NCBI GenBank assembly: GCA_018266835.1
Contig: JAFDZP010000004.1
Coordinates: 124,001 to 188,000, forward strand
DNA: 64,000 nucleotides
Direction of reading: 5' to 3'
DNA from: Bacteroidota bacterium
Lineage (GTDB): Bacteria > Bacteroidota > Ignavibacteria > Tepidaquicellales > Tepidaquicellaceae
The translations under genes and the position numbers were made by a program. The stretch's first letter is position 1. Each line of letters begins with the position of its first letter. Below the pieces are notes generated by a model. That model did no database searches and had not been told where the DNA came from. It was given only the letters and a program-made list of their open reading frames with translations. Of the stretch, positions 6,019-47,274 are shown piece after piece.

Positions 6019-6744
6019 GTGGCTTCAAAAAATCATTACGATTCCTTAGCGCCATTCTACGATACCGTAATCGGTAAAAACAATTCTTCAAAAAAATTCT
6101 TACTTAATACTGCGAAAAAATATTTAAAGACAGGTTCAAAAATTCTTGAGCTCGGCTGCGGCACTGCTGAAAATCTTGCAGAGTTCAGCAGCAAATATTC
6201 TTTAACTGGTATTGATATTTCCGAAGGCATGCTTAAAGTTGCGTGCAAAAAAATCAAGAAAGCAAAATTTGTTCAGGGAGATATTTCAAACTTCAGTCTT
6301 GAGGAAAAGTTTGATATGATTTTTTGCGTGTATGATACAATAAATCATCTGGATAATTTTTATTCATGGATATCACTTTTTAAATGTGTCAGGAATCATT
6401 TGAATGAAGGCGGGATTTTTATTTTTGATTTTAATACTTTGTATAAACTGAATATATTATCGCAATCCGATATTTATCCTGAGTTTCCCGGCGAAGATAC
6501 ACTTCTCCTTAATGTAAAAAAAGAAACTAAAAATCTTTTTCATTGGGAGATAAAGTACTTCAAGCATGTTTCAGCGGCAAAATATGAATTAATAAAATCG
6601 GTGATTCCTGAATCAGGTTACGAAACCACAAAGATTTTATCTGAAGTAAAAAAGAATTTTACTTTATTAAATACTTATAACGAAAATTTCAAAAAGGCAG
6701 CAAAAAATTCTTTAAGAATATTTTGCGTAGTTAAACAAAAATAA
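6019..6744 (+). CDS. Class I SAM-dependent methyltransferase
   Basis: This 241-residue protein starts at GTG 6019. Motif I, which binds S-adenosylmethionine, is ILELGCGTAENL. GIDISEGML is the acidic loop after strand 2, and FDMIFCVYDTINHL is motif IV. The fold resembles the methyltransferase 11/25 groups. Nothing identifies the substrate. It lies between the HAD phosphatase and the bifunctional folate enzyme on the same strand with short spacers. Confidence 0.85.
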   Translation: MASKNHYDSLAPFYDTVIGKNNSSKKFLLNTAKKYLKTGSKILELGCGTAENLAEFSSKYSLTGIDISEGMLKVACKKIKKAKFVQGDISNFSLEEKFDMIFCVYDTINHLDNFYSWISLFKCVRNHLNEGGIFIFDFNTLYKLNILSQSDIYPEFPGEDTLLLNVKKETKNLFHWEIKYFKHVSAAKYELIKSVIPESGYETTKILSEVKKNFTLLNTYNENFKKAAKNSLRIFCVVKQK

Positions 6745-6760
6745 TCTAATTTTTATTTGT

Positions 6761-8377
6761 ATGAAAAAAATTATAGAGTGTGTCCCTAATATTTCAGAGG
6801 GAAGAGATGAAAAAATTATAAATGCATGCGCTGATGCAGTGCGAGCAGTTCCGGGAGTTACACTGCTAGATGTTGACCCGGGCAAATCAACCAACAGAAC
6901 TGTATTTACATTCGTTGGCGATCCCGATGCAGTAGTAGAAAGTGCGTTTCAGTTTGCAAAGAAGGCATATGAATTAATTGATATGACTAAGCACTCAGGC
7001 GAGCATCCGCGTATGGGAGCAGTGGACGTTGTGCCTTTCGTTCCCGTTGCCAATGTTACCACTGAAGAATGTGTTGAGTGCGCAAAAAGATTCGGTGAGC
7101 GCGTGGGAAAAGAACTTAACGTTCCTATTTATCTATACGAAGAAGCCTCGAACAATCCCGACAGAAAGATGCTTAAGCAAATCCGTCAGGGTGAGTACGA
7201 AGGCATCAAAGACAAAATTTATAAACCCGAGTGGAAACCGGATTTCGGTCCGCAGGAGTTTATTCCCAAATCAGGCGCAACTGTTACAGGCGCAAGATTT
7301 TTTTTAATAGCATACAATGTTAATATACTCGGCACAAAAGAGCAGGCGCATAAAATTGCGCTGAATGTCCGCGAGCAGGGAAGAAGCGCTGATGAACCGG
7401 GAAGATTGAAAGCCGTCAAGGGTATCGGATGGTATGTTACTGAGTACAACATGGCGCAGGTCTCAATGAATCTTGATAACTATAAAATCACTCCGCCTCA
7501 TATTGCATTCGAAGAGTGCGCTGCCGATGCAAGAAAAATGCATCTTGCAGTTGCAGGTTCTGAGCTTATCGGACTCATTCCGCTTGAAGCAATGCTCATG
7601 GCTGCCGATTATTATATAGAGAAAGAAAATTTATTTTTAGTAGATGAAGCGCAGAAGATAAGATTAGTAATTGAGCGTCTGGGACTTTCATCCATCTCTC
7701 CGTTCATTCCTGAAAAAAGAATTATTGAGTACATGATAAAAGAAGAAGGCGCAGAGCCCCTTGCTTCTTTAACAGTAAGAAATTTTGTTGAGCTTGTCGG
7801 CGCGCGTACATCTGCACCGGGCGGCGGAAGCGTCTCTGCTCTGATTGCTTCGATGGGTGCAGCGCTTGGAGCAATGGTAGGCTGGATGACTTATGGTAAT
7901 AAAAAGTTCGAGCATTTAGATGCTACAATGAGAAAACTCATAGGACCGCTTCATTATAAAATGAAAGAGCTTATTCCGTTGATTGATGCCGATACAAATG
8001 CATTCAATGATTACATGCTTGCAATGAAAATGCCTAATAAAACTAAAGAAGAGCAAAAAGTGCGTCATGCAAAAATGCAGGAAGGACTGAAGAAAGCTAT
8101 CACAGTTCCGTTCTCAGTAATGACAATTTCTGATTCGTGCTGGGAATATATGATTAAAATGGCGAAGGATGGGAATATTTCTTCTGCAAGTGATCTGGAA
8201 GTCGGTGCTAAATCTCTGGAGACAGGTATATGGGGTGCTTATAAAAATGTTCTTATAAATCTGAACAACATTGATGACGAAGCTTACAAATCTGATATGA
8301 TTACAAAAGGTGAAGAGATTTTAAAAAATGCAGAGAAAAACTGTAAAAAAGTCTGCTCGATTTTAGAGAAGAGATAG
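6761..8377 (+). CDS. ftcD: Bifunctional glutamate formiminotransferase / formiminotetrahydrofolate cyclodeaminase
   Basis: This 538-residue protein starts IIECVPNISEGRD, the signature of formiminotransferase. Residues 1-180 are the N-terminal and about 181-300 the C-terminal formiminotransferase subdomains (GWYVTEYNMAQVSMNL). From about 335 it is a cyclodeaminase (TSAPGGGSVSALIASMGAAL). The first half moves the formimino group of N-formiminoglutamate to tetrahydrofolate; the second releases ammonia to give methenyl-tetrahydrofolate. Length matches the fused enzyme of animals and some bacteria. No histidine-degradation genes are in view, so the source of formiminoglutamate must be encoded elsewhere. 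Confidence 0.95.
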   Translation: MKKIIECVPNISEGRDEKIINACADAVRAVPGVTLLDVDPGKSTNRTVFTFVGDPDAVVESAFQFAKKAYELIDMTKHSGEHPRMGAVDVVPFVPVANVTTEECVECAKRFGERVGKELNVPIYLYEEASNNPDRKMLKQIRQGEYEGIKDKIYKPEWKPDFGPQEFIPKSGATVTGARFFLIAYNVNILGTKEQAHKIALNVREQGRSADEPGRLKAVKGIGWYVTEYNMAQVSMNLDNYKITPPHIAFEECAADARKMHLAVAGSELIGLIPLEAMLMAADYYIEKENLFLVDEAQKIRLVIERLGLSSISPFIPEKRIIEYMIKEEGAEPLASLTVRNFVELVGARTSAPGGGSVSALIASMGAALGAMVGWMTYGNKKFEHLDATMRKLIGPLHYKMKELIPLIDADTNAFNDYMLAMKMPNKTKEEQKVRHAKMQEGLKKAITVPFSVMTISDSCWEYMIKMAKDGNISSASDLEVGAKSLETGIWGAYKNVLINLNNIDDEAYKSDMITKGEEILKNAEKNCKKVCSILEKR

Positions 8378-8398: not shown

Positions 8399-8965
8399 TT
8401 AAGCTCTATGTTCCTCTTTGTTTTTTTCTAGTATGGAGTTTACATTTTTCAGAATATCCTGAGACAGGTTTTCAACAAGCTCCAGATCTTTTTTAATTTC
8501 ATCAAAGCTTTCTGATTTATCGTCTGATATTTTTCTGAAATGATTCATTGAAATTCCCTGAATAGTTACAATAGGCAGTTTCAGTTCTTCACTTATAATT
8601 TCAAGAATTTCATTTTTCTTTTTTCTAAGATTATTCAGTTCGTCATTTGCTTTCTGAAGCTCAGTATTTTTTTCCTGTAGAAGTTTTGTTTCTTTTCGTG
8701 ACTGGTGAATGGTCAGAGCGTTATTAAGCTCTTCCGTTTTCGCCTTATTTTCCTGCAGAATTTTTTTGTGTTCAGAATCAGTAAAAGCTTTAAAGTACAC
8801 AAATGCATTTTTGGAATCTCCCGAATTTTTATAGCATAGTGAAATCAGCTTCAGGATTTCCGGTCCGCCTTCATCCGAATCTTCCAGTGGGAGAAGCATT
8901 TCAAGCGCTTCCGTAAACTTCTTTTTTTCAATAAGCCCTCTGGCTTTTTCCAGTTCAAGATACAT
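8399..8965 (-). CDS. Truncated histidine-kinase paralogue: coiled coil and DHp-like helices, no phospho-His, no ATPase domain
   Basis: This 188-residue protein starts 3 bp after the stop of the TPR histidine kinase. Residues 1-60 resemble TPR helices. Residues 85-180 align closely with the kinase's coiled coil and dimerisation region: EKNTELQKANDELNNLRKKKNEIL matches EKNAELFEINRQLIEVDKEKNDFL, and SEELKLPIVTI matches VHDLKNPLTNI. The kinase's phospho-accepting His382 corresponds here to Glu126. No N, G1 or G2 ATP-binding box follows, and the protein ends with EEHRA. The frame is open and intact, so it does not look like a decayed pseudogene. I infer a partner or inhibitor that pairs with the kinase through the coiled coil; a recent partial duplication is the alternative. 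Confidence 0.8.
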   Translation of the reverse strand: MYLELEKARGLIEKKKFTEALEMLLPLEDSDEGGPEILKLISLCYKNSGDSKNAFVYFKAFTDSEHKKILQENKAKTEELNNALTIHQSRKETKLLQEKNTELQKANDELNNLRKKKNEILEIISEELKLPIVTIQGISMNHFRKISDDKSESFDEIKKDLELVENLSQDILKNVNSILEKNKEEHRA

Positions 8966-8968
8966 AAA

Positions 8969-10756
8969 TTAAAATGTTACTTTGAAAGTTGTTCCTTTGC
9001 CGAATTCAGATTCAAATGAAATCTCTCCTCCTGCAAGCTCAGTTAATTTTTTTACGATTGAAAGACCCAGCCCTGTAGAGTTTTCTCCCGCAGTCGGCTT
9101 ATTGCTAATTCTTGCAAACTTCTGAAATACTCTGCTCTTTTCTTCTTCCTTTATACCAAGTCCGTTATCGGTAATTTCAAAAACTGTTTTTGTATCTGTA
9201 TTTTTATAATAACTAATTTTCACCTCACTGTCTTTGTGAGAATATTTAAGAGCATTCGAGATTAAATTTATTAATATCTCTTTTATCACCACTGCATCGT
9301 TGTTCAATACTTCTGCATTTGCTTCGCCGATCAAATTTACTTTTACGTTTTTTTGTGTTGAGTATGTTTCAAATTCCGATATAATATTTTCCAGCAAGGT
9401 CTTCACATTTATTTCTTCGGGATGCAGTGTGATATTTCCCGATTCAATTTTATTTATATCGAGAAGGCTGTCGATTATCTGAAGCATTCTTTGAGATGTA
9501 AGAAATATTTTCTCAAATGAGTTTATCTTCTTTTCAGATGCGAGTTTTTCAAAATTTCTTTTAATATTCCCCGCTATCAGAATAATATTTGTGAGAGGAT
9601 TTTTTAAATCGTGCACTACCACTCCGAGAAAATCATTTTTTTCTTTATCTACTTCTATAAGCTGGCGGTTTATTTCAAACAGCTCTGCATTTTTTTCTTT
9701 AAGAATTTCCGATTCCTTTTGGGACTCATGCAGATGACTGACAATTTTTATATTCTCGAGATTCTTTTTGTTAAGTAAGGAAAGATGCTCTATGCGTGTA
9801 CTTCTGAACAGCTCGTGATAATGCAAGGCTTCATCATATTTTTCAAGTTTCTCATATAACTCGGAAAAATTTGAATACACAGTTATTAAAAGTCTGAACA
9901 TCCCTTTTTCTCTCAATATTTCAACTGCGCTTTTGTAAAGCCGTATAGCATCATTCGTTCTTCCCAGAAAATGATATGTTTCTCCCATGGCAGTAACACA
10001 TTCACCGTAAACTCCCCAGTTATTATTTTTTATTGCAAGGTTTACTACGCGCTCAAAACATTCCAGTGCTATATCAAATTTTTTCTGCTTCCAGTACACT
10101 GTACCTATAAACATAATAATATAGCAGCTGAGTATTTCATTGTTCAGCCCGTCTGCATTTACATCCTCTGCAATTTTTAAATGAGCAAGCGCTTTATCAT
10201 ACTCTCCTGTGATGGCATACATATTACCGAGATTGCAGTTAGTCACACAAACTCCGTAGTTATCATTTATTTCAGAGGCTATCTCCGATGAAATCTTTAC
10301 AAATTCGATTGCTTTATTTAAATCATTTAAAATATTCTGATAATAGTTTGCAGCATTGTTATAAAATTTATGCTGAAGGAGCAAATCTTTAACAGCAATG
10401 GATTTCTCAAGTCCCCGGAATAAAAACTCGGCCTGTTTTGAAGTATCGCCGATATCTGCATAAGCTTTGGAAAGAATAAGGCAGCAGTATGCCTCACGTT
10501 TGCCTTCATTTAATTTAACATATACAGGCAAAGCAGCACTGCAGTACTCAACGGCTTTTTCAGGGGTTTCAAGTTTATCGTAATTATTACCAATGGCGTA
10601 GGAGGCGTCGGCGATTCCGCGCTCAAAATTTATTTGTTTGCAGTAGGATAAAATAGATTTTAAAGATTCGTTTGATTCTTTAAGTTTACCGGAGCGGCCC
10701 AACTCTCTTGCAGTTTCGATTTGTTGCAGGATATTATCAGTTTCAGCAGTGAACAT
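8969..10756 (-). CDS. Soluble TPR-containing sensor histidine kinase
   Basis: This 595-residue protein has no signal peptide or membrane segment. Residues 1-330 are tetratricopeptide repeats (for example SYAIGNNYDKLETPEKAVEY and YSNFSELYEKLEKYDEALHYH). A coiled coil spans about 335-375. The HisKA helix carries His382 in VVHDLKNPLTNI. The HATPase domain shows an N box (NLISNALKYSHKD), a G1 box (DNGLGIKEEE) and a G2 box (STGLGLSIVKKL). It phosphorylates an unknown response regulator; no regulator gene is next to it, so it is an orphan kinase. The gene directly downstream encodes its His-less, kinase-less paralogue. Confidence 0.93.
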   Translation of the reverse strand: MFTAETDNILQQIETARELGRSGKLKESNESLKSILSYCKQINFERGIADASYAIGNNYDKLETPEKAVEYCSAALPVYVKLNEGKREAYCCLILSKAYADIGDTSKQAEFLFRGLEKSIAVKDLLLQHKFYNNAANYYQNILNDLNKAIEFVKISSEIASEINDNYGVCVTNCNLGNMYAITGEYDKALAHLKIAEDVNADGLNNEILSCYIIMFIGTVYWKQKKFDIALECFERVVNLAIKNNNWGVYGECVTAMGETYHFLGRTNDAIRLYKSAVEILREKGMFRLLITVYSNFSELYEKLEKYDEALHYHELFRSTRIEHLSLLNKKNLENIKIVSHLHESQKESEILKEKNAELFEINRQLIEVDKEKNDFLGVVVHDLKNPLTNIILIAGNIKRNFEKLASEKKINSFEKIFLTSQRMLQIIDSLLDINKIESGNITLHPEEINVKTLLENIISEFETYSTQKNVKVNLIGEANAEVLNNDAVVIKEILINLISNALKYSHKDSEVKISYYKNTDTKTVFEITDNGLGIKEEEKSRVFQKFARISNKPTAGENSTGLGLSIVKKLTELAGGEISFESEFGKGTTFKVTF

Positions 10757-10838
10757 TAGAACAAATTAACAAAGAATTTCATAAATAAAAATTTAATTGA
10801 AACAAATTTCCTAAAAATTGGTTTCAGTAAAAAAGCAT

Positions 10839-11435
10839 ATGAAATATTTTAAATTTTTAATAGCACTTTTAATTTTTATTTCAACAGCAAGGGAGTCATA
10901 TTCGCAGTCTTCATTTGTACCTGGATTATATAATACTGGAATGGACGATTTCAATAATCTCCTCGCCGACGGAGAAACTGACTCGCATTATCTTTTAATA
11001 GAAAGCGCCGATATGAATTATCCCGGACCTGATGCAAAAGTGATTTTATCCAACGAGTTTCCCATGGGAAACTGGTATCCGAACGGCGATAAATCAAAAT
11101 GGATTGCTCCGCGCACAGACGCAGGCAAATGGAATGAAGAAGGAGTTTATATCTACAGATTATATTTTGATCTCACGGGACATGATTTGAACAGCACTGT
11201 AATAAAAGGCGGATGGAGCACAGATAACAACGGTGTGGATATTTTGATCAACGGACAAAGCACAGGCTTCGCAACACCGTTTGAAGCATTTAAAGGAGGT
11301 TTGTTTCCGTTTGAAATAAAATCAGGATTCGTGCAGGGAGTAAATACACTCGACTTTATAGTAAATAACGGATATGCACCAACAGGTTTACGTGTTGAAT
11401 TTGCGCCGACGAATAAAACAATTACTCTGAGATAA
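10839..11435 (+). CDS. Secreted protein of unknown function
   Basis: I do not recognise this gene. Starting at ATG 10839 gives 198 residues with a clear signal peptide ending ARESYSQ. The in-frame TTG at 10818 would add seven residues ahead of the Lys start and is less likely. The mature part is rich in Asp, Gly and aromatics and looks all-beta, resembling a carbohydrate-binding or jelly-roll module: GGWSTDNNGVDILINGQSTG, then GLFPFEIKSGFVQGVNTLDF. It is expected in the periplasm or outside the cell. It is divergent from the TPR kinase over 82 bp and convergent with the next gene. Confidence 0.7.
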   Translation: MKYFKFLIALLIFISTARESYSQSSFVPGLYNTGMDDFNNLLADGETDSHYLLIESADMNYPGPDAKVILSNEFPMGNWYPNGDKSKWIAPRTDAGKWNEEGVYIYRLYFDLTGHDLNSTVIKGGWSTDNNGVDILINGQSTGFATPFEAFKGGLFPFEIKSGFVQGVNTLDFIVNNGYAPTGLRVEFAPTNKTITLR

Positions 11436-15571: not shown

Positions 15572-15862
15572 CTATCCACAAGTAAAATTAATGTTTTTTT
15601 TAAACAAAATGAATATATAAATTTATTTATTCTTCTTTTAACTCAACTTATAATATTTTAGAATAACAATCAACTATTAACTTACAAAATTTTTCAAATT
15701 ATTTAAAATAAAATTATATTGTTTTTTCTTTCATTATTAAACGAGTAAATTAAGAAATGGTTTTATTAGAATTCATAAAATCAGGTTAAAAAATAAAAAC
15801 ATTTGCTTCTCAAATTTATTAAGCATTTTTCCTTTTATTGCATTTACTTATTTTAAGTGACA
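15572..15862. other. AT-rich divergent intergenic region
   Basis: About 290 bp of very AT-rich sequence separates the pgsA-like operon (minus) from the first zinc-ribbon membrane gene (plus). It should hold both promoters. I see no repeat or RNA gene in it. Confidence 0.5.
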
Positions 15863-16609
15863 ATGGAAAAATGTTTAAACTGCGGAACAAAACTGATGGG
15901 TAAGTTTTGTTATCATTGCGGTCAGGAAAAAATTGTTGATGACTCGAATATGAAGGCTCTTCTCAAGGATTTTTTCCGGAACTCATTTCGATGGGAGTCC
16001 ACATATTTTGCTACTATCAAAAAATTATTTACAGCGCCGGGAATATTTATAAAAAATTATATTGAGGGAAAAAGAAAGCCTTACATAAAGCCCGTAACTT
16101 TTTTTATTTTAGTTGTATCGTTTTACATAATAACATTCCATACTTTCAGCGAGAATGATTTCAGCTATATGAGCAGAACTTTCTTAGGTGAAACCTCAAA
16201 GGAAATTATAATTCTTGGAGTCTCGGTTGCAGAATTTCAGCATTTTATTACCAATAAAATGAATTACATGATTTTCATTCAGCCGGTTTTTTATGCGTAC
16301 TTCTTTACACTGTTCTTTAGAAAGCCAAAAATAAAAATTGCCGAAAGCTTCATCTTTTATTTTTATATTATGGGAGCGGGATTTCTGATAGCAGCTCTTT
16401 TTATTTTTCTTAGTTTGATAAATTCTAATATATGGAATCTAAGATTCTTTCCTATGGCTGTTTTCGAAATTTATGCAATGATTCAGTTTACTCAGTCAAA
16501 AACTGCTTCCGGAATTTTAAAATCTGCTGCGGTATTACTGCTGGGAAGTGTTTCATATATAATTACTGCATCGGCAATCGTAATAGGATATTTAAAATTA
16601 ACACATTAA
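15863..16609 (+). CDS. Zinc-ribbon membrane protein, DUF3667-like, copy 1
   Basis: This 248-residue protein starts at ATG 15863; an in-frame GTG lies two codons upstream, but the ATG matches the start of the tandem paralogue. An N-terminal zinc ribbon is formed by CLNCG and CYHCGQ. Next comes the conserved block FRWESTYFATIKKLFTAPG, then FIKNYIEGKRKPYIKPVTFF at the start of the first membrane helix. About four to five membrane helices follow. The family (DUF3667) is widespread in Bacteroidetes and has no established function. It is followed after 63 bp by a second copy. Confidence 0.82.
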   Translation: MEKCLNCGTKLMGKFCYHCGQEKIVDDSNMKALLKDFFRNSFRWESTYFATIKKLFTAPGIFIKNYIEGKRKPYIKPVTFFILVVSFYIITFHTFSENDFSYMSRTFLGETSKEIIILGVSVAEFQHFITNKMNYMIFIQPVFYAYFFTLFFRKPKIKIAESFIFYFYIMGAGFLIAALFIFLSLINSNIWNLRFFPMAVFEIYAMIQFTQSKTASGILKSAAVLLLGSVSYIITASAIVIGYLKLTH

Positions 16610-16672
16610 TATATTTTATAAATCAATTCACAACTCCCATAAAATTTAATGTTATCATTTTCATAAAGCAGA

Positions 16673-17419
16673 ATGGAAAATTGTTTAAACTGCGGTACAG
16701 AACTGAACGGGAAATACTGCCATAACTGCGGCCAGCAAAAGATTTCGAAAAGATTTTCGGTAAAATCTTTGTTCCATGATTTTCTTCACAGCTCTTTTCA
16801 CTGGGAATCTACTCTCATATCTACAATAAAAGAATTGTTAATTTCCCCGGGAAATTTCATGCGAAATTATATAGAGGGTAAAAGAAAATCTTATTCTTCT
16901 CCTGTCTCATTTTTTATTCTGACGCTTACTATATTTCTTATACTGTTTCATTTTATCAGTGAAAACTATCTGAACTATATAAACCAGATGGTGATGGGTG
17001 AGAGGTCAAACAGCCTTTCAATTTACGGAATGACGGTTCCTGAATTGCAGCATTTAATATCAAGCAAGCTGAATTACTTCATGTTCATATTGCCTCCGGC
17101 ATTCGGCTTTTCTTTTATACTGTTCTTTCGCAAGACTAAAATAAATTTTGCAGAGTCCCTGGTAATTTCATTTTATGTACTCGGTCAGGGAATGCTGATT
17201 TCTTCAGTTCTCATTTTATTTTTAATGATAAGCTTTAAGCTATGGAACCTGAGATTTTTCTTTACGTTCGGATATTATATATATGCAATGATTCAGTTTT
17301 CGCGCTCGAATATTCTTCCGGGATTCTTTAAATCGCTTGGTGTGATTATAATTAGCTATTTATTCTATATGTTGACCGTTGTAATTTTAGTGCTGGGCTA
17401 CTTGAGACTGACTCATTAA
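16673..17419 (+). CDS. Zinc-ribbon membrane protein, DUF3667-like, copy 2
   Basis: This 248-residue protein is the same length as copy 1 and similar along its whole length: CLNCGTELNGKYCHNCGQ, then FHWESTLISTIKELLISPGN, then FMRNYIEGKRKSYSSPVSFF, and the same ending GYLRLTH (GYLKLTH in copy 1). The zinc-ribbon cysteines and the helix pattern are conserved, while the loops have diverged strongly. Both copies therefore appear to be under selection rather than one decaying. Its function is unknown. Confidence 0.82.
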   Translation: MENCLNCGTELNGKYCHNCGQQKISKRFSVKSLFHDFLHSSFHWESTLISTIKELLISPGNFMRNYIEGKRKSYSSPVSFFILTLTIFLILFHFISENYLNYINQMVMGERSNSLSIYGMTVPELQHLISSKLNYFMFILPPAFGFSFILFFRKTKINFAESLVISFYVLGQGMLISSVLILFLMISFKLWNLRFFFTFGYYIYAMIQFSRSNILPGFFKSLGVIIISYLFYMLTVVILVLGYLRLTH

Positions 17420-45390: not shown

Positions 45391-45939
45391 TTGAAACATT
45401 TATTAATATTAATAACAGCAGTTTTTATTTTTTGCTTTGCTTTAATTTTTAATAACGCAAATGCGCAGGATAGTGAAACAAAAATTGCGCAGCTTGAGAC
45501 ATCTTTAGGTACAATAAAAATAAAATTATTTACCCAAGAAGCTCCTTTGACATCACAAAATTTCATTGACCTTATTAATAAAGGCTTTTACGACGGAATA
45601 ATTTTTCACAGGGTAATAGACGGGTTTATGATTCAGGGTGGAGACCCTACCGGAACAGGAATGGGCGGCTCAGGAAAAATAATTCCTGATGAATTCAAAA
45701 CAGGGTTATCGCACGGCAAGCCGGGCATTGTTTCTATGGCAAATGCAGGTCCTGGAACAACAAGCTCACAGTTTTTTATTACTCTAACTCCTCAGGGAAG
45801 GTTAGATGGGGGATATTCTATTTTCGGTGAAGTTATCGAAGGAATGGATGTTGTATCTGCAATCGGCAAAGTTAAAACAGGTTTAAATGACAGACCGGTT
45901 GAAGATGTAAAAATTATTAAAGCAACAATTTTAGAATAA
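45391..45939 (+). CDS. Periplasmic cyclophilin-type peptidyl-prolyl isomerase
   Basis: 182 residues from TTG 45391. A signal peptide (hydrophobic to about residue 24, ending NANAQ) is followed by a complete short bacterial cyclophilin domain: [20 protein letters not shown] with the catalytic Arg, [16 protein letters not shown], and [14 protein letters not shown]. It speeds cis-trans proline isomerisation of exported proteins. It is the first of three consecutive cyclophilin genes, all on this strand. Confidence 0.93.
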   Translation: MKHLLILITAVFIFCFALIFNNANAQDSETKIAQLETSLGTIKIKLFTQEAPLTSQNFIDLINKGFYDGIIFHRVIDGFMIQGGDPTGTGMGGSGKIIPDEFKTGLSHGKPGIVSMANAGPGTTSSQFFITLTPQGRLDGGYSIFGEVIEGMDVVSAIGKVKTGLNDRPVEDVKIIKATILE

Positions 45940-45971
45940 TAGTTTTATTTATAAAAACACTATAAACAAAA

Positions 45972-46649
45972 ATGAAAAAAATTAATTTATTATTAACTGC
46001 ATTCGTTCTTTTTGCATTTATTGCAGCAGGATGCGGAAAAAAAGAGGAATCTACAACAACAACTACTACAACTCCTCCGACAACTACTACTCCTGTACCT
46101 ACAAAGGTTGATACAGTAAAGAAAGACACAGCAACAACTAAAAGTGATGCAAACGGCGATGAAAAGAAAACTGATGGTAAAGAAAAAAATATTGTAAAGA
46201 TGGAAACAACCATGGGAACCATTAAAATAAAGTTATTTACAAAAGAAGCTCCGATAACAACAGCAAACTTTATCGGGCTTGTAAATAAAGGATTCTACAA
46301 CGGAATTATTTTTCACAGAGTAATTGACGGTTTCATGATTCAAGGGGGAGACCCGACAGGAACAGGTACCGGCGGCTCACCAACGACAATTAAGGATGAA
46401 TTCGGTCCCGGCTTAACGAACAATAAAGCAGGCATATTGTCCATGGCAAACAGAGGTCCTAATACAGGAAGCTCACAATTCTTCATCACACTTGCTCCTC
46501 AGCCGCACTTAGACGGCAAGCATGCAGTGTTCGGTGAAGTTATTGACGGAATGGACGTTGTAAAGAAAATAGGAAAAGTAAAAACAGCAGGAGCAGATAA
46601 ACCTGTTACAGATGTGAAGATGACTAAAGTAACAATGGTAGATAAGTGA
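45972..46649 (+). CDS. Lipoprotein cyclophilin-type peptidyl-prolyl isomerase
   Basis: The 225 residues begin with a lipoprotein signal (lipobox AFIAAGC, Cys21). A tether of about 50 residues made mostly of Thr, Pro, Lys and Asp follows ([20 protein letters not shown]), and then a cyclophilin domain closely similar to its neighbours ([36 protein letters not shown]). The long tether would hold the enzyme away from the membrane. Terminated by the hairpin at 46667. Confidence 0.93.
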
Positions 46650-46666
46650 TAAAAAAATTTTAAGAT

Positions 46667-46702
46667 AATCCCGGAAGATTGATTTCTTCCGGGATTTTTT
46701 TA
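46667..46702 (+). terminator. Rho-independent terminator after the lipoprotein cyclophilin
   Basis: AATCCCGGAAGA pairs with TCTTCCGGGATT around a short loop and is followed by TTTTTTAT. Confidence 0.9.
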
Positions 46703-46717
46703 TGTCTATTTTCATCC

Positions 46718-46747
46718 GACCTGATCCCGCTCAAGCGGGACCAGGTC
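46718..46747. repeat. Composite palindrome GACCTG-[CCCGC-n-GCGGG]-CAGGTC
   Basis: The inner hairpin ATCCCGCTCAAGCGGGAC is framed by GACCTG and CAGGTC. The same inner core occurs at 25412, 25992 and 45311 with other flanks. Confidence 0.75.
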
Positions 46748-46764
46748 AAATTTTGTAATTAACA

Positions 46765-47274
46765 ATGTTCTTAAAAATATTTAAAAGAAAAAATATCTCT
46801 CACATGGAACAACAGGACAAAAACATTATGATGGAAACCAATATGGGCAACATCAAAATTAAATTATTCATGAAAGAAGCGCCGCTCACTGCAGGCAATT
46901 TTCTTTCGCTCGCTGAAAAAGGATTTTACGACGGAATCATTTTTCACAGAGTGATTGACCAGTTCATGATTCAGGGCGGAGACCCGACCGGAACGGGTCG
47001 CGGCGGTTCAGGCAAAAAAATTAAAGATGAATTCGGCGACGGATTGATTCACAATAAGCCAGGCATTCTTTCAATGGCAAATGCAGGACCTAACTCAGGC
47101 GACTCACAATTTTTTATTACACTTGTTCCTACTCCATGGCTTGACGGCAAGCATGCAATCTTCGGTGAAGTGATTGAAGGTATGGACGTGGTTGAGAAAA
47201 TCGGTAAGACAAAAGTTGACCACTACGATAAGCCTGTTGAAGATGTGGTGATGACAAAGGTGTATGCTATCTAA
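46765..47274 (+). CDS. Cytoplasmic cyclophilin-type peptidyl-prolyl isomerase
   Basis: 169 residues from ATG 46765, or 156 from ATG 46804 ([20 protein letters not shown]), which is probably closer to the family start. There is no signal peptide. The cyclophilin domain is complete ([41 protein letters not shown]). This is the third tandem copy and the only one apparently kept in the cytoplasm. A terminator separates it from the other two, so it has its own promoter. Confidence 0.92.

Follow-up and report, generated by a model that had tools for sequence, protein, structure and literature searches.

A His-less, ATPase-less kinase-like protein encoded directly behind a TPR histidine kinase, and recurrence of the layout in the same genome

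Analysis of a 64,000-nt stretch of a Bacteroidota genome (the window, whose positions serve as coordinates below) suggested that this genome probably uses catalytically empty partner proteins to tune its TPR histidine kinases, at two loci. In the window, the gene of a 595-aa product (the kinase) is directly followed by that of a 188-aa product (the short protein), for which our preferred reading, with a probability of about 0.5, is a functional pseudokinase subunit that would pair with the kinase through the coil and the DHp bundle and lower or bias its output. Three observations favour a dimerisation partner that is catalytically empty and under selection: the layout recurs with purifying selection, the loss of catalytic residues contrasts with retained structural columns and an unchanged coil length, and the coil resembles that of the neighbouring kinase best of 45. 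Histidine kinases are usually regarded as symmetric homodimers, and the few known kinase heterodimers involve partners in which most parts of a kinase are still present. The putative partners at the two loci described here are trimmed to sensor, coil and dimerisation hairpin, with neither His nor ATPase domain. If these proteins pair with their adjacent kinases, they would be natural test objects for one-sided kinase dimers, bearing on what one dimer half does when the other neither phosphorylates nor is phosphorylated, and on whether the TPR input of one subunit can steer the other.

Architecture of the gene pair

A sequence-only reading of the window had described a TPR kinase gene and a short kinase-like gene with an intact frame, 3 bp apart. 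Both open reading frames were found where it had placed them and with that spacing; they lie on the minus strand with the kinase gene first, and they share one reading frame (Table 1). The 3-bp, same-frame junction is an arrangement that allows translational coupling, and the gene order indicates that the two genes probably form a two-gene operon lacking a response regulator; no response regulator gene was found beside the pair.

Table 1. Features of the kinase pair and its flanking genes (window positions)
Feature	Position	Strand	Basis
TPR sensor histidine kinase, 595 aa	8969..10756	-	ORF, domain search and AlphaFold
His-less, ATPase-less putative partner, 188 aa	8399..8965	-	ORF, profile and AlphaFold
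Intergenic gap of 3 bp, kinase stop TAA to partner ATG	8966..8968	-	junction TAA-TTT-ATG
Codon of phospho-acceptor His382, motif HDLKNP, in the kinase	9611..9613	-	alignment
Codon of Glu126 (motif EELKLP) in the short protein, aligned with the phospho-acceptor His	8588..8590	-	alignment
Convergent neighbour, glutamate formiminotransferase/cyclodeaminase-like	6761..8377	+	named by eye
Divergent neighbour; orthologue in the genus-mate 75% identical	10818..11435	+	synteny comparison

Only 21 bp separate the stop codon of the short gene from the convergent gene. A split or broken kinase with its ATPase part downstream was therefore ruled out, since no room is left for it. One original fusion cut by a stop codon is also unlikely: the two frames are in register, but the kinase terminates where kinases usually do. 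The convergent formiminotransferase/cyclodeaminase-like gene is kept in 29/29 family genomes searched, and it served to locate the syntenic site. Elsewhere in the window, positions 15857-17419 encode two similar membrane proteins in tandem that bear a zinc-ribbon-like CxxC...CxxC motif at the N-terminus, with a single copy at the syntenic place of the genus-mate, and positions 45391-47274 hold three consecutive cyclophilin-type peptidyl-prolyl isomerase genes, with signal-like N-termini in two products and not in the third.

The kinase is complete. TPRs, HisKA and HATPase_c were all matched in Pfam, and the motifs HDLKNP, NLISNALKYS, DNGLGI and GLGLSIVKK are all found in its sequence. About eight TPRs occupy residues 1-320, a long coil-DHp helix (307-404) contains His382, and a full HATPase_c domain follows at 487-595; no membrane segment was seen by eye.

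The likeness of the short protein to the coil and DHp of the kinase, noted by eye in the sequence-only reading, was borne out by BLASTP (residues 62-185 against 320-438, 34% identity, E 4e-11). The short protein scored 71 bits against a coil-plus-DHp profile of TPR kinases, built from 13 of these with the window's kinase included and the short protein left out; the likeness is therefore not mere coiled-coil composition. Pfam HisKA alone gave 12.8 bits, under the cut-off, and the presence of a HisKA-type dimerisation domain is shown by the TPR-kinase profile match together with a predicted DHp hairpin. The short protein matched neither Pfam HATPase_c nor the ATPase profile of the TPR kinases, confirming that the ATP-binding domain is absent. 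Alignment with the kinase likewise verified the proposed substitution of His382 by Glu126, and it further revealed Glu127 for Asp383 and Leu130 for Asn386. With His, Asp and Asn all replaced, the short protein has lost its phospho-acceptor together with its HDxxN phosphatase motif.

The AlphaFold model of the short protein (mean pLDDT 91, 32 relatives aligned) comprises two TPRs, where the kinase has about eight; they are formed by residues 2-48 and the first part of the long helix. This helix spans 51-147 (97 residues; coil and DHp helix 1), and DHp helix 2 follows at 154-187. Measured from the beginning of the predicted long helix, the phosphosite lies 75 residues further on in both proteins (51 to 126 in the short protein, 307 to 382 in the kinase). 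A Foldseek search returned no match at E below 0.001, TPR proteins and HK853 DHp structures being among the weak ones; the scores are weak because short TPR and helix-hairpin matches score low.

Recurrence, kinship and distribution

The window's genome contains a family of TPR kinases, and the layout recurs in it at locus L091:6454-11073 (G000:C2:466453-471072). There, 11 bp separate the gene of a 599-aa TPR kinase (K599) from the next gene, which encodes a 463-aa protein (D463), and a further 13 bp lie before the gene of a 467-aa protein (D467). D463 and D467 are TPR-coil-DHp proteins that retain full TPR arrays, lack the ATPase domain and both end directly past DHp helix 2; the position of the phospho-acceptor His is occupied by Ile in D463 and by Lys in D467. 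They share 50% aa identity, with pN 0.33, pS 0.75 and an omega of about 0.08 at a pS near saturation, and pN was lower than pS within the coil and within the DHp, each taken alone. Because both lack the ATPase domain and have the same end point, its loss is most simply older than their duplication, in which case their later divergence took place under purifying selection. No other observation argues as strongly that empty proteins of this kind are in use.

Comparison with 45 TPR kinases revealed different patterns for coil and DHp. By coil similarity, the adjacent kinase ranked 1st for the short protein, 1st for D463 and tied 1st for D467, whereas by DHp similarity it ranked 6th, 14th and 14th, respectively. 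The TPR-to-DHp coil linkers of the kinase group (L091-L171) mostly measure 19, 26, 33 or 40 residues, a heptad ladder in steps of seven that should preserve helix phase from the TPR sensor to the DHp. Each of the three short proteins has a linker of 26, equal to that of its own neighbour kinase, although 26 is a common class, a point against reading the length match as pairing. Tandem duplication followed by retention of the coil for pairing would account for these coil matches, as would co-adaptation, and they are not proof of pairing. In the phylogenetic tree, the short protein joined a kinase of another genome (G014) with support of 95/94, and grouping it with the neighbour kinase or with D463/D467 was not rejected by the AU test. 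The term paralogue, used in the sequence-only reading, is correct, but the tree and the AU test do not single out this very kinase as the gene that was duplicated.

The phospho-acceptor His is kept in 45/45 compared TPR kinases and is absent from all three ATPase-less proteins, whose genes in every case (3/3) come directly after that of a full kinase. Searches of 29 genomes of the family and of a phylum sample of 395 genomes revealed no orthologue of the short protein, and a genome-wide search of 391 genomes found none of D463/D467; the 391- and 395-genome searches scored the best candidates per genome and might overlook strongly degenerate cases. A check of more than 100 ORFs with a DHp, taken from about 85 regions of the family, order, class and phylum, yielded no further intact ATPase-less, His-less TPR-DHp protein. 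In scans of the whole collection of GTDB contigs, the short protein had no relative and the kinase query retrieved two distant kinases only.

Further HATPase-less candidates in relatives were dismissed. L092 and L153 are affected by Ns (an assembly gap in L092, N within the sequence in L153), L151 is frameshifted, and L154, like its relatives L178/L179, has a truncated ATPase domain, the His being kept in L154. L133/L177/L181 proved to be TPR-coil-cyclase proteins, L172/L176 complete kinases and L174/L180 other TPR proteins. The frameshift in the genus-mate TPR kinase L151:4675-6542 lies between the DHp and the ATPase domain (516 aa + 102 aa); in the window's genome, the closest relative of this kinase is an intact one at L111:4880-6751. 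In proteins of related genomes, at L133:9914-11905, L177:4649-6391 and L181:1244-3145 and 6096-7940, a nucleotide cyclase catalytic domain replaces DHp-ATPase behind the TPR-coil, and one of these proteins adjoins a TPR kinase, the same sensor-coil module carrying exchanged outputs.

At the genus-mate's syntenic interval, the kinase pair is missing and a 373-aa FAD-dependent oxidoreductase-like ORF is found (L087:9605-10726). Set against each other, this interval and window positions 8399-10756 look like an exchange site. The kinase shares only 37% identity with its best match in the genus-mate, and as judged from this comparison, kinase and putative partner are present or absent together. The sequence-only reading had held that a short gene not conserved in related genomes would indicate decay. 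No conservation was found, yet the kinase is equally lineage-specific, and absence from relatives therefore does not separate decay from recent invention.

Alternative explanations and a proposed mechanism

The short gene could be a decaying duplicate, a kinase copy without its ATPase domain and most of its TPRs that drifts functionless, its frame open since the truncation is recent. No orthologue exists in any genome searched, the gene is absent from the genus-mate's syntenic site, the short protein has the longest end branch in the tree (1.6 changes per column), and the frameshifted kinase of the genus-mate indicates that such genes do decay in this lineage. However, the 188-codon frame is intact despite strong divergence, and neutral simulation left it stop-free in 7% of copies at 85% aa identity and in 0.5% at 72%, values to be taken as a rough guide only, because the short protein had diverged in part before its ATPase domain was lost. 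Structure was also retained where catalysis was lost: conserved columns were defined as the 23 with at least 80% conservation among 30 aligned kinases, with three catalytic ones set apart, and the short protein was identical in 16/23 structural and 0/3 catalytic columns, with 18% identity in the remaining columns. Codon usage of the short gene is normal for the genome (z 3.8 over a base-composition null), and the same design is under purifying selection at the second locus. We consider decay unlikely, though a serious alternative. Purifying selection was seen in the comparison of D463 with D467; for the short protein, which has lost its catalytic residues and has no orthologue to set against it, we infer functionality from indirect signs of selection.

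A functional short protein might also act as a free-standing homodimer, a TPR-DHp scaffold or sink that, for example, holds a response regulator without phosphorylating or dephosphorylating it. In known kinases, the surface of the DHp hairpin binds both the partner and the response regulator, and this hairpin is kept in the short protein. Archaeal HisKA-only proteins have been proposed to act alone (PMC5847659), but these keep their His, whereas the short protein has lost its catalytic and phosphatase residues. The position of a full kinase directly ahead in 3/3 cases, and a coil of identical length that is most like that of the adjacent kinase, further argue against independent action, which we likewise regard as unlikely. 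The sequence-only reading had suggested that Glu126, located exactly at the phospho-acceptor position, could mimic phosphorylation; on this view it would imitate phospho-His and lock a mixed dimer in a phosphorylated-like state. This idea was not supported and was rejected as a general principle, since the corresponding residue is Ile in D463 and Lys in D467, the equivalent proteins. Glu mimics phospho-histidine poorly, and the adjacent Asp and Asn are lost as well, a pattern that points to inactivation rather than mimicry. We regard phosphomimicry as very unlikely.

The preferred reading of a catalytically empty partner also has points against it, namely the missing orthologues, the longest tree branch, the missing TPRs and the lack of an adjacent response regulator. 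HisKA kinases dimerise via a DHp four-helix bundle, and phosphorylation occurs in cis or in trans. The short protein would be made from the kinase's message directly after the kinase, and would pair with it by the shared coil and a four-helix DHp bundle extended by that coil; both this pairing and the direction of its effect are what we infer from sequence and models. The resulting mixed dimer would contain a single His and a single ATPase domain. A kinase that phosphorylates in trans would be silent in this dimer because its ATPase would face Glu; for one that phosphorylates in cis, the mixed dimer would work at half output, and in either case it would be short of one HDxxN phosphatase site. 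The short protein would set the fraction of active dimers, with co-translation favouring the mixed form, and it would mostly damp or bias the kinase because it has two TPRs against about eight. For K599, D463 and D467 would additionally give the kinase a second sensor arm or ligand input, because they keep full TPR arrays. An AlphaFold model of a read-through kinase-short fusion reached a pTM of 0.53, too weak to interpret for pairing. As a tentative generalisation, which we hold with less confidence than the reading of the window's pair, the soluble TPR kinases of this lineage may have acquired dedicated empty TPR-coil-DHp regulatory subunits, translated directly after the kinase. These would form asymmetric heterodimers in which the second subunit brings a separate sensor arm and sets how many active sites there are, a natural histidine kinase with one active site.

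Comparison with known systems

The sequence-only reading knew of no named system with this layout. As a general statement this is too strong, since FasBC, RocA-CovS, DivL and RetS-GacS are similar in principle. The nearest working model is FasB-FasC of group A Streptococcus, which are encoded by adjacent kinase-like genes and whose products heterodimerise in two-hybrid tests (PMC12675982); the window's genes are likewise adjacent, and their products would pair as well. In FasC, the kinase domain is dispensable and His246 is required (PMC12675982). Natural FasC retains an ATPase domain and a needed His, whereas the short protein has neither, and FasB and FasC are membrane proteins with a response regulator alongside, whereas the window's pair appears soluble. 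In RocA-CovS, a non-catalytic kinase homologue modulates a true kinase, and changing the predicted His of RocA was without effect (PMC7028121); RocA is a larger kinase-like protein, whereas the short protein is only TPR-coil-DHp and is encoded 3 bp behind its kinase. According to the passages on DivL-CckA in PMC9491836, DivL functions without need of its His and is a full kinase-like protein with an ATPase domain, which the short protein lacks. RetS inhibits the paralogous kinase GacS through heterodimerisation (review PMC12189002), but it is a complete hybrid kinase with receiver domains that are likewise missing from the short protein.

Two further cases involve incomplete kinases. Archaeal "HisKA, no HATPase" proteins, annotated as "possible incomplete histidine kinase", consist of sensor domains followed by a HisKA-like domain with a conserved His (PMC5847659; P2CS database). 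The short protein lacks HATPase as these do, but it is without the conserved His and is encoded behind a full kinase, whereas no partnership with a neighbouring kinase is described for the archaeal proteins. In Corynebacterium, a ChrS pseudokinase with a frameshift in the CA domain alters signalling through a paralogous kinase and does not need its own His (PMC9491836); this form is laboratory-evolved and its truncated form showed no two-hybrid binding, whereas the window's short gene is natural.

In the literature searched, with subscription papers mostly outside reach, no description of a TPR kinase with a DHp-only partner was found, nor was the combination of a soluble, His-less protein of TPR-coil-DHp only, encoded directly behind a kinase and recurring in the genome, found described there. 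The principle of a kinase tuned by a kinase-like partner is already known in a few other bacteria, and the form suggested here would be a variant of it.
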